Shown here one piece after another: positions 5,760 through 63,870 of a stretch of DNA of 64,000 nt. The notes below the pieces were generated by a model. That model had not been told where the DNA came from. It saw only the letters and a list, made by a program, of their open reading frames with translations, and searched no databases. This DNA is from Pseudooceanicola sp. HF7 (GTDB lineage: Bacteria; Pseudomonadota; Alphaproteobacteria; Rhodobacterales; Rhodobacteraceae). The DNA lies in NCBI RefSeq assembly GCF_011806405.1, contig NZ_JAATOW010000001.1, positions 62,001-126,000 of the forward strand. Reading direction: 5' to 3'. A program made the position numbers and the translations under genes. Numbering within the stretch: position 1 is the first letter of the stretch; every line of letters begins with the position of its first letter.

Positions 5760-5782
5760 TCGCGCTGGCGCGCTCACCCCCT

Positions 5783-5805
5783 GAAGTATTTCCGGCCAGA
5801 TGAAG
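5783..5805 (+). repeat. Copy A of the 23-bp dispersed repeat
   Basis: The sequence is GAAGTATTTCC followed by GGCCAGATGAAG. The same 23 bp occur, reverse-complemented and exact, at 41786-41808, and with two changes at 41621-41643. Similarity extends a few bases on each side (C-run before, GGGGATC after). This copy sits between the convergent urtE and dtd genes. Confidence 0.8.
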
Positions 5806-5809
5806 GGGA

Positions 5810-6247
5810 TCAGCTTTCGATCCAGATGGTGATCGGACCGTCATTGGTGAGGGTGACCTGCATGTCGGCGCCGAAGCGGCCGGTTTCGACCGGCAGTCCC
5901 TCGGCGGCGAGGGCGCGGGCGAAGTGTTCGTAGAGCGCGCGGCCTTCCTCGGGCGGGGCGGCGCTGGAAAAGCCGGGCCGGTTGCCGCGCGAGGTATCGG
6001 CGGCCAGGGTGAACTGGCTGACCACCAGGGCGGAGCCGCCGACATCCCTGATCGAGAGGTTCATCTTGCCCGCCGCATCCTCGAAGATGCGCTGCTTGGC
6101 GATCCGGGTGGCCAGTTTCTCGGCCTCTGCGGTGGTATCGCCGCGCATGGCGCAGACCAGGATCATCAGACCCTTGCCGCAGCGCCCCACGACTTGCTGG
6201 TCGATGGCGACCTCGGCCCCCGTCACCCTTTGCAATAGTGCCCGCAT
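5810..6247 (-). CDS. dtd: D-aminoacyl-tRNA deacylase
   Basis: A 145-residue cytosolic enzyme that hydrolyses D-aminoacyl-tRNAs, and glycine mischarged on tRNA-Ala, so protecting translation. It starts [13 protein letters not shown]. It contains the invariant SQFTLAAD motif and the C-terminal cross-subunit motif in the form NDGPIT (usual NxGPVT). Length matches the family exactly. It is transcribed toward urtE. Confidence 0.96.
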
Positions 6248-11914: not shown

Positions 11915-12026
11915 CGTGCGTTGCGTTAACCCCGCCCCACCGTACGCTGCGCACCGACATGATACCGACGTGAAACCGACGCGAAACAGATGTCGCACCG
12001 ACGCCCTTCCGGCCCTTGTTAACCAG
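11915..12026 (+). repeat. Copy 1 of the GTTAAC-bounded 11-bp phased element
   Basis: Five contiguous 11-bp units run from 11951 to 12005: GCACCGACATG, ATACCGACGTG, AAACCGACGCG, AAACAGATGTC, GCACCGACGCC. GTTAAC occurs before (11925-11930, within GTGCGTTGCGTTAAC) and after (12018-12023, within CCCTTGTTAACCAG). The copy lies 3' of tadA, same strand, with convergent prs beyond. Homologous copies are at 33.5, 51.5 and 63.8 kb. Confidence 0.9.
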
Positions 12027-12043
12027 GGGATGCACACATGATT

Positions 12044-12076
12044 CGGGGCGGCGGAGCCTTCGCTCCGGCCGCCCCG
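12044..12076 (-). terminator. Hairpin after prs
   Basis: CGGGGCGGC pairs with GCCGCCCCG, and GGAGC/GCTCC continues the stem above a small internal mismatch. It lies about 20 bases after the prs stop on the minus strand. No strong T-run follows, so it may act as a transcript-end stabiliser as much as a terminator. Confidence 0.5.
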
Positions 12077-33360: not shown

Positions 33361-33492
33361 GATAGGCAAAGCCGCGCGGCTGGGGAAGGTGGCGCGCCGC
33401 CGCGTGGCGAGTTTGCGCCGGGTTCGCAAAAGGTAAAGGCACCGGGCGCAGGGTGGCGGGGCGGGATCCGAGAATCGGCGCGCAAAAGCCTG

Positions 33493-33600
33493 GTTAACAA
33501 GGGGCAGTGGGCGAAATGGCGACGTCTGTATCGCGTCGGTACGACGTCGGTATCACGTCGGTATTCCTGTCGGTATCTGCCCCGGTTAACGCCCCGTGCG
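33493..33600 (-). repeat. Copy 2 of the GTTAAC-bounded 11-bp phased element
   Basis: On the minus strand five units span 33576 to 33521: ATACCGACAGG, ATACCGACGTG, ATACCGACGTC, GTACCGACGCG, ATACAGACGTC, with one extra A after the first. GTTAAC flanks at 33585-33590 and 33493-33498 (CCCCTTGTTAACCAGG). It lies beyond the terminator of the MFS gene and in that gene's orientation, upstream of DUF1007. Confidence 0.9.
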
Positions 33601-41610: not shown

Positions 41611-41819
41611 GCACCCCCGTGAAGTATTTATGGCCAGATGAAGTGGAACCGGTCACCTTCTATTAACCACACATCGCAAAGACTGTCTTCGCGTCACAGG
41701 CTGGAGAGCCGATGGGCGTGCCAGGTGAAGCCCCGATCCGACATATCTGGTAGCCAATCCGGTGGAGCGGATCGGGGTGGATCCCCTTCATCTGGCCGGA
41801 AATACTTCGGGGGGAGTGC
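41611..41819. repeat. MITE-like inverted pair of the 23-bp repeat (copies B and C)
   Basis: Copy B (plus, 41621-41643) and copy C (minus, 41786-41808) form inverted ends about 35-40 bases long when C-run flanks are included (GCACCCCCG... and ...GGGGAGTGC), around a 142-base core. The core has a CCCCGATCCG / CGGATCGGGG stem (41731-41740 with 41768-41777). No transposase is encoded. Copy A at 5783 shares the same end. Confidence 0.65.
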
Positions 41820-41906
41820 GGAACGCGCGGCGGGGGCTGGCCCCCGTGCCCCGCTTGCACCCGGGCGAATGCAGTGGGAACAAAATTCGGAAGGCAGAAA
41901 TGGAGC

Positions 41907-51481: not shown

Positions 51482-51590
51482 GTGCGCTGCGTTAACCCGG
51501 GCAGATACCGACAGAAACACCGACGTAATACCGACGTGATACCGACGCGATACAGACGTGGCTCGGGTGGCTCTTCCCCCTTGTTAACCA
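51482..51590 (+). repeat. Copy 3 of the GTTAAC-bounded 11-bp phased element
   Basis: Units from 51505 to 51560: ATACCGACAG(AA), ACACCGACGTA, ATACCGACGTG, ATACCGACGCG, ATACAGACGTG. GTTAAC flanks are at 51491-51496 (GTGCGCTGCGTTAAC) and 51583-51588 (CCCCCTTGTTAACCAG). It lies after the terminator of the 5'-nucleotidase and in its orientation. Confidence 0.9.
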
Positions 51591-51732
51591 GCGTTTCGGG
51601 GCTGATTCGCCGCCTCCGTGGCACCGCCGTACCGCGCGGCCCGGTCAGATCCCGTTAACCGGCTTCCCGCCGGGGCCGGGGCTGGCTAGAATGGCCGCGG
51701 TCCCGACAAGAACGCGCGCCGGAGGGAAAGCG

Positions 51733-63733: not shown

Positions 63734-63778
63734 GGGCAATGTCCCTGTCTTTTCTGCCCCGTTTCGGGGCCTGTTTTC

Positions 63779-63833
63779 GGTGTCGGTACGACGTCTGTTT
63801 TGCGTCGGTATCACGTCGGTATTACGTCGGTGC
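63779..63833 (-). repeat. Copy 4 of the 11-bp phased element
   Basis: On the minus strand five units run GCACCGACGTA, ATACCGACGTG, ATACCGACGCA, AAACAGACGTC, GTACCGACACC. It follows the truncated gene at the window end by 38 bases. The flanks are less conserved here (CTTCTTAACACC before it). Register and the ACAGACGT variant match copy 1. Confidence 0.88.
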
Positions 63834-63870
63834 GCTCCGCGCGGGGGCGGAAGGCGGTGTTAAGAAGTCC

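Follow-up and report, generated by a model that had tools for sequence, protein, structure and literature searches.

PHO boxes, as presented in the excerpt of the paper cited, are 11-nt head-to-tail direct repeats with OmpR/PhoB binding and a consensus that differs by species (PMC4415409). The parC site of ParMRC plasmids, in the part of the source available, consists of directly repeated ParR sites, which are 11 bp long in plasmid R1; the repeats vary between families and set specificity, and in R1 the ParR protein requires a minimum of two of these 11-bp repeats (PMC9426499). KOPS are described in the section cited as a short motif that points along each chromosome arm from the origin towards the terminus (PMC2680272). 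REP/REPIN sequences are portrayed, again in an excerpt, as extragenic, dispersed and of high copy number, with inverted pairs that fold into hairpins and a random distribution in extragenic space (PMC3116915).

The arrays reported here were found in a 64,000-nt window (the whole stretch of DNA that was analysed) of Pseudooceanicola sp. HF7, and none of the known families tested fits them. Like PHO boxes, they are 11-nt head-to-tail direct repeats whose consensus varies. However, a PHO box unit has 7 conserved and 4 less conserved bases, against about 9 and 2 in the middle units of the arrays of the source genome, and the arrays consist of 4-6 units, occur at about 90-150 sites per chromosome and have a strand that is tied to GC skew. 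Nor do they share the promoter location of PHO and OmpR sites, being depleted in divergent gaps and enriched in convergent ones. They resemble parC in the anatomy of the 11-bp repeats, but parC is a plasmid site upstream of parM, whereas the arrays occupy many chromosomal sites. The likenesses to PHO boxes and to parC are analogies, not memberships. The arm orientation of KOPS recurs in the arrays as a bias, not as an absolute rule, and is not significant in genome G366. A KOPS is a single 8-bp sequence that FtsK reads and that can also lie inside a gene, whereas the arrays are made of 4-6 phased units, lie within a gene in 1 of 85 cases and are regularly spaced. Like REP/REPIN sequences the arrays are extragenic, dispersed and of high copy number, but their core is made of direct repeats oriented by skew instead of inverted doublets forming hairpins, and their distribution departs from random in G282 (six chosen contigs), in the source genome (G000) and on contig C12 of G211, the departure being not significant in G269. 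The chromosomal parS site, TGTTTCACGTGAAACA, is a separate sequence, found at 2-3 places per genome in 5 genomes with at most one mismatch. No description of such arrays was found among the literature matches listed, which were judged by title and start of abstract and came from open-licence papers only, so that this is weak evidence.

The sequence-only reading had noted four copies of a phased 11-bp element bounded by GTTAAC. All four are present in the window (Table 1), and a tandem repeat finder reports period 11 at each of them. The fixed 11-bp register that had been described holds for all units of copies 1 and 4 and for four units of copies 2 and 3; the first unit of the latter two is out of register, standing 12 bp from the second (33574/33562 and 51507/51519). 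GTTAAC is found at both borders of copies 1-3, and copy 4 has only an upstream TTAAC. The proposed rule that a unit ending in GCG or GCA is followed by one reading ACAGACGT or ACAGATGT applies to the four window copies and fails as a genome-wide rule: an ACAGAY unit follows a canonical unit in 78 of 85 elements of the source genome, with GCG or GCA in the preceding unit in 31 of the 78. Another dispersed family, near CCCCTGAAGTATTTCCGGCCAGATGAAGGGG, occurs in the window at 5771-5811, 41615-41650 and 41779-41820, in both orientations.

Table 1. Parts of the four array copies in the window (positions counted from the first base of the window).
Feature	Position	Strand	Remarks
Copy 1, array	11953..12007	+	five units in exact 11-bp register: ACCGACATGAT ACCGACGTGAA ACCGACGCGAA ACAGATGTCGC ACCGACGCCCT
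Copy 1, 5' GTTAAC border	11925..11930	+	subtype I; 25 subtype I elements aligned
Copy 1, 3' GTTAAC	12018..12023	+	subtype I alignment
Copy 1, GATTC (GANTC)	12040..12044	+	21 nt past TTAAC
Copy 2, array	33519..33574	-	first step 12 bp, next four units 11 bp, last ACAGACGTCGC
Copy 2, 5' GTTAAC border	33585..33590	-	
Copy 2, 3' GTTAAC	33493..33498	-	
Copy 2, GATTC (GANTC)	33472..33476	-	21 nt past TTAAC
Copy 3, array	51507..51562	+	first step 12 bp, next four units 11 bp, last ACAGACGTGGC
Copy 3, 5' GTTAAC border	51491..51496	+	
Copy 3, 3' GTTAAC	51583..51588	+	
Copy 3, GATTC (GANTC)	51604..51608	+	20 nt past TTAAC
Copy 3, further module CGGTCAGATCCCGTTAACC	51641..51660	+	resembled in other subtype I copies, by eye
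Copy 4, array (subtype II)	63777..63831	-	five units in 11-bp register, fourth ACAGACGTCGT
Copy 4, palindrome GCGCG-GAG-CGCAC	63830..63842	-	overlaps array start
Copy 4, upstream TTAAC	63859..63863	-	

The family proved larger than the four copies noted. In the source genome (4.27 Mb in 74 contigs) two adjacent units, with at most 3 mismatches, gave 102 forward and 98 reverse matches, and the reversed control gave 0. A profile of 74 columns, built from 26 copies, produced 89 matches, two of them from a single long array, and thus at least 88 elements; four of these lie in the window, and 88 is a lower bound since 150 of 2624 candidates were scored. The genome scan that the sequence-only reading had proposed as a refuting test did not refute its claim, with 88 copies, an empty reversed control and a non-random spacing and strand. 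The 85 elements whose flanks were studied are the 88 minus window copies 1-3. Their arrays contain five units in 63 cases, four in 18 and six in 4; ACCGACG-type units recur at 11-bp steps in every array studied, and the consensus unit of 11 bp is near ATACCGACGTG. The claim that several copies share position-specific units was also borne out, within this genome and between genera.

A structured RNA was rejected as an explanation, since Rfam at gathering thresholds matched tRNA only over the window and no array, and the folding of the copies was unremarkable (z of -1.0 to 1.5 in 6 of 8 strands) apart from copy 2, which fell below -2 on both strands (-3.0 and -3.9). A phage, plasmid or viral origin was rejected as well, none of the phage, plasmid and viral collections searched giving a match. 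DnaA-box-like sequences stand in or beside arrays only occasionally (2 of 10 in G211, at L242 and L246, which end in or adjoin one; 2 of 15 in G282, as TTTTCCAC; 1 of 1 at L204; 1 of 85 in the source genome; three array matches of G366 ending in TTATCCAC, TAATCCAC or TTATCCAG), and DnaA boxes were dismissed as regular partners of the arrays.

Sorted by eye, the flanks of the source-genome elements fall into three types: TTAAC at both sides of the array (subtype I); CTTAAC or similar upstream, often with G(T/C)GCGNNNCGCAC against the array (subtype II); and TGCANNNNTGCACA-like palindromes at both sides (subtype III). The small palindrome G(T/C)GCGNNNCGCAC abuts 45 of the 85 arrays, and GTGCGNNNCGCAC and GCGCGNNNCGCAC were found in 25 and 20 of the 85 elements. 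GTTAAC, which had been taken for the border of the whole family, turned out to mark a subtype, TTAAC lying within 60 nt 3' of the array in just 21 of 85. In 17 of these 21 a GANTC follows no more than 35 nt on (in 13 of the 17 at 19-21 nt), against a chance expectation of 0.04 per site; GANTC occurs 20-80 nt 3' of 8 of the 64 remaining arrays. GANTC is the methylation site of CcrM, and the N varies, 3 of the 17 sites reading GAGTC or GACTC, which fits a CcrM site. According to the excerpt cited, TTAACCAT is the CtrA half-site in a Ruegeria (PMC3692519). Standing in a fixed arrangement beside the array, TTAAC and GANTC suggest that subtype I arrays, about a quarter of the sites, are coupled to the cell cycle, through a putative CtrA-type half-site and a putative CcrM-type site that may be in use there. 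A near-identical hairpin block of about 95 nt is located upstream of seven source-genome arrays (L062, L069, L078, L081, L093, L094 and L096), with variants at L043, L079, L097 and L101. This hairpin, ACGAAACNGGGGGGCATCGAGCCCCCCTGTTTCGT...CAAAGCCCCCC, is a second dispersed repeat that stands before subtype II arrays and has a terminator-like look.

The strand of the arrays follows GC skew in G000, G282 and G211 and weakly in G269, and is therefore probably tied to replication. At the 85 loci of the source genome the gene-strand-corrected third-position skew on the array strand was -0.078 (95% CI -0.093 to -0.062), a value as extreme being reached in 0 of 2000 random flips. It was -0.161 on genes co-oriented with the array and +0.004 on anti-oriented genes, and the intergenic skew, with the array itself excluded, was -0.066. 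The effect remained between -0.063 and -0.093 across six distance bins reaching to 3 kb on both sides, and the corrected skew was negative at 50 of the 58 loci having genes on both strands. Gene strand was rejected as the cause of the link, as the effect stays after the skew is averaged over both gene strands. Within the window, the 8-kb bins that hold arrays have corrected skews of -0.050, +0.134, -0.039 and +0.055 for arrays on +, -, + and -; the corrected third-position skew agrees in sign at all four copies and the intergenic skew at three. Neighbouring arrays of the source genome lie on one strand in 25 of 43 cases (21.3 expected, p=0.16). Coherence along contigs being not significant, the strand of an array here tracks a local skew that flips within tens of kb, with no clean replichore. 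The strand-balanced third-position skew of the window changes sign several times, the changes following one another too closely to reflect replichores. Recent local inversions carrying array and skew together are one possibility for such flips.

Strand coherence was significant in G282, which has at least 149 elements (150 candidates scored). There, neighbouring arrays lie on one strand in 79 of 118 cases (58.9 expected, p=0.0003), and the strand coherence of contigs was matched in 0 of 20,000 permutations. On six contigs, picked for their strand-coherent arrays, array strand and GC skew have opposite signs at 31 of 33 arrays, with mixed gene strands: 12 of 14 arrays at negative skew are '+' and 19 of 19 at positive skew are '-' (p=2.6e-7). 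G269 consists of one 3.6-Mb contig in which parS lies at 2.93 Mb, and its elements of at least 40 bits (n=36) are 5 '+' and 12 '-' to the right of parS and 14 '+' and 5 '-' to the left (p=0.018). All 77 matches gave p=0.021, and the 41 weaker ones alone showed no polarity (p=0.52). In G211, contig C12 has 14 arrays to the left of about 0.9 Mb, 12 of them '+', and to the right four that are '-' and two that are '+'; in five stretches chosen on both sides the total and the intergenic skew agree with the strand in 5 of 5 and the third-position skew in 4 of 5. Strand coherence in G366 was not significant (p=0.15 and 0.24).

The arrays are also spaced more evenly than chance in three of the four genomes tested. 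The coefficient of variation (CV) of the gaps was 0.640 in the source genome, against 0.926 under uniform placement (42 gaps, p=0.0018), 0.586 against 0.94 on the same six chosen contigs of G282 (40 gaps, p=0.0002; all 118 gaps of that genome have a CV of 0.76, given without a null) and 0.515 against 0.930 on contig C12 of G211 (19 gaps, p=0.0018). The value for G269, 0.820 against 0.964, was not significant (35 gaps, p=0.16). Mean gaps are about 18 kb in G282, 36 kb in the source genome, 56 kb in G211 and 91 kb in G269.

A pattern of four degenerate units with at most 3 mismatches, of which single matches may be due to chance, matched 47 of 394 genomes of the family (the source genome included), 19 of them with at least 10 matches. 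The reversed control matched 12 of the 394, reaching 10 matches only in G211 (27 + 19), with 6 + 3 in G145. In these two genomes, which belong to two other genera, the control matches are arrays of other 11-bp units, CAGCCATAGAG-like in G211 and CAGCCATACGC-like in G145, and thus appear as different dialects of the unit. Ten further genomes have 1-4 control matches (G196 with four, G293, G340 and others); since the dialects of G211 and G145 are real, these might be dialects too. Further variants of the unit are ATACCGACGGC in G366 and ATACCGACCGG in G286. The order of units is conserved between genera: the 39-base string ACCGACGTNATACCGACGTNATACCGACGCGATACAGAC occurs in 12 stretches of 5 assemblies of GTDB release 220 (one genome per species), namely two of Boseongicola and one each of Roseobacter, Pseudooceanicola antarcticus (Rhodobacterales, Paracoccaceae in NCBI) and a Rhodobacteraceae bacterium. 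A midpoint-rooted tree built on prs and valS for 22 genomes, of which 21 have matches, places carriers in every main branch sampled; that the distribution is patchy rests on the family scan and not on the tree. G192, the one other genome of the same genus, has no pattern match, and a 500-kb sample of it (4,935 further bases read N) has no 11-bp-phased array at a threshold that recovers 82 of 85 arrays of the source genome but 2 of 4 of G269. Twelve orthologous gene ends in G192 are without an array, several of the gaps there being just a few bases long. A search for hidden dialects 3' of prs found no 11-bp-phased array in 29 other genomes.

Arrays within a coding sequence were found in valS, for which 29 loci from 30 genomes, mostly chosen as carriers, were sampled (G158 was without a locus). 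Among 24 readable linkers, those of G076, G080, G107, G211 and G286 being left out, one common linker carries an array in seven: in one frame in G125, G261, G342 and G151, which come from four genera; in a shorter or degenerate form in G354 and G326; and in another dialect in G145. Pairs with the same residue have identical codons in 50 of 61 cases inside the array and in 1542 of 2703 elsewhere, a comparison without a formal p because the pairs are not independent, and only 2 of 610 windows of 13 codons are as codon-identical as the array. The rare codons ATA and CGA are each kept in four of the four same-frame arrays, and elsewhere in these genes they make up 3 of 175 Ile and 3 of 160 Arg codons. 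In the flanks, 386 columns have an identical residue across the four genes; 17 of these columns have a rare codon in some genome, and in none is one rare codon shared by all four. Rare codons being kept in this way, it is the nucleotide sequence, not the protein, that is conserved. Selection could account for this, as could, less simply, a renewal of these arrays from other ones.

These data bear on the main rival reading, in which the arrays have spread as a non-autonomous mobile repeat of the REP/REPIN or MITE kind, copied by an enzyme of the host or by one that an element carries. At the replication fork, such a repeat would enter one of the two strands preferentially, and it would survive where it is harmless, and the dialects would stem from lineage-specific master copies. 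The reading keeps its weight because the distribution is patchy, with absence from G192 in the same genus, and because seven copies of the source genome have the long upstream hairpin block in common; the strand bias and the avoidance of promoter gaps would be expected from single-strand insertion plus selection as well. We nevertheless judge it unlikely, as the even spacing in three genomes, the unit order conserved between genera and the negative searches of phage, plasmid and viral collections all speak against it, as do the ATA and CGA codons of valS, unless these were renewed by copying.

The position of the arrays relative to genes, called with our own small gene finder based on codon usage, was compared with that of array-free gaps. 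In the source genome 84 of the 85 arrays lie outside called genes, the exception (L124, contig C42) adding a peptide to the variable linker of a gene that appears, from its protein, to be mutL. Where both neighbours were called (n=80), 30 arrays stand between convergent genes, 20 in '++', 19 in '--' and 11 in divergent gaps. Among 112 array-free gaps of at least 120 bp (from the window plus 55 of the loci), 13 are convergent and 41 divergent, so that convergent gaps are enriched (p=4e-5) and divergent gaps depleted (p=5e-4) among arrays. The 33 arrays sampled in G282 are likewise distributed over 19 convergent, 9 '--', 3 '++' and 2 divergent gaps, against 26 convergent and 45 divergent among 135 gaps overall, a count that includes the array-holding gaps. 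The role of a transcript-end element, one of those suggested by the sequence-only reading, was not supported, despite the enrichment between gene 3' ends, since the direction of the source-genome arrays is indifferent to that of the genes and arrays also lie within valS and mutL; its other suggestion, a role in chromosome organisation, gained support as the likelier one from spacing and strand. A promoter or terminator element was rejected on the same indifference of direction.

Positional conservation was sought at individual genes as well. An array lies within 120 nt 3' of prs in G000, G366, G242 and Roseobacter CANLQB, and at 829 nt in G269; the remaining 26 of 31 prs loci are without one (one of them covered for 152 nt only). 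This was set aside as weak evidence of a conserved position because arrays prefer convergent gaps anyway. Homologous reading frames near arrays were found in 54 locus pairs between genomes (L241 and L033 were dropped, the script detecting no array there), but they include multi-copy families, and common neighbourhoods were not accepted as proof of conservation. At L111, L143, L144 and L184 (G000, G282, G269 and G125) a gene for a small protein, about 68 residues long, lies no more than about 1.2 kb from the array; the protein looks like a cold-shock protein and may belong to a multi-copy family.

In a second rival, the arrays are operators of a large regulon, with a response regulator of the OmpR/PhoB type on 11-bp direct repeats, or a block to read-through between convergent genes. 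The enrichment of convergent gaps favours it, and so do PHO boxes, which in the excerpt cited are 11-nt direct repeats with a species-specific consensus (PMC4415409). Yet gaps that bear divergent promoters are depleted in both genomes, the array direction in G000 is indifferent to the neighbouring genes and follows GC skew instead, and no Pfam family is common to the seven neighbours of the window copies, which makes this explanation rather improbable. A mark for self-recognition or DNA transfer, similar to an uptake sequence and read by an uptake, transfer or defence machine, would agree with dialects between genera and regular spacing, but the arrays are far fewer and longer than known uptake sequences, and we consider it very improbable.

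The reading we prefer, with a probability of roughly 0.55, is that the arrays are cooperative binding sites of a putative protein with a role in organising or orienting the chromosome. A DNA-binding protein assembling head-to-tail best accounts for the phasing on the helix, the ordered units, the dialects and the kept nucleotides, and the regular spacing, the strand bias and the scarcity of arrays in promoter gaps suggest a role for the chromosome itself rather than in gene regulation. Each element would be a double-stranded DNA site of a sequence-specific protein, with units of 11 bp corresponding to about one helical turn, so that monomers, for example of the winged-helix or ribbon-helix-helix type, could line up head-to-tail along a single helix face and give the occupied array a direction. 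A chromosome would have about 90-150 of these directed complexes, one to every 20-90 kb or so, as marks of how its arms lie relative to replication. They may help to organise or segregate the chromosome, for example by giving a direction, or a boundary, to a DNA translocase or loop extruder that travels between origin and terminus. Co-evolution of the protein's reading surface with all of its sites would then have produced the dialects. More tentatively, and at somewhat less than even odds, the arrays might represent an undescribed system of the Rhodobacterales in which a dedicated protein reads directed, helically phased arrays marking both arms with respect to replication, and in which all the sites change dialect from genus to genus along with their reader. 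By analogy, such a system might be likened to a bacterial counterpart of directional boundary sites.

Even if the arrays were mobile, regular spacing, strand bias and a nucleotide sequence kept within valS would be unusual for such an element. If the preferred reading is true, the genome carries direction-coded protein sites throughout, and the specificity of their reader shifts from genus to genus. This would raise the testable question of how a hundred sites can change in step with a single reader, and would offer a way to study in bacteria how chromosome arms keep their orientation.
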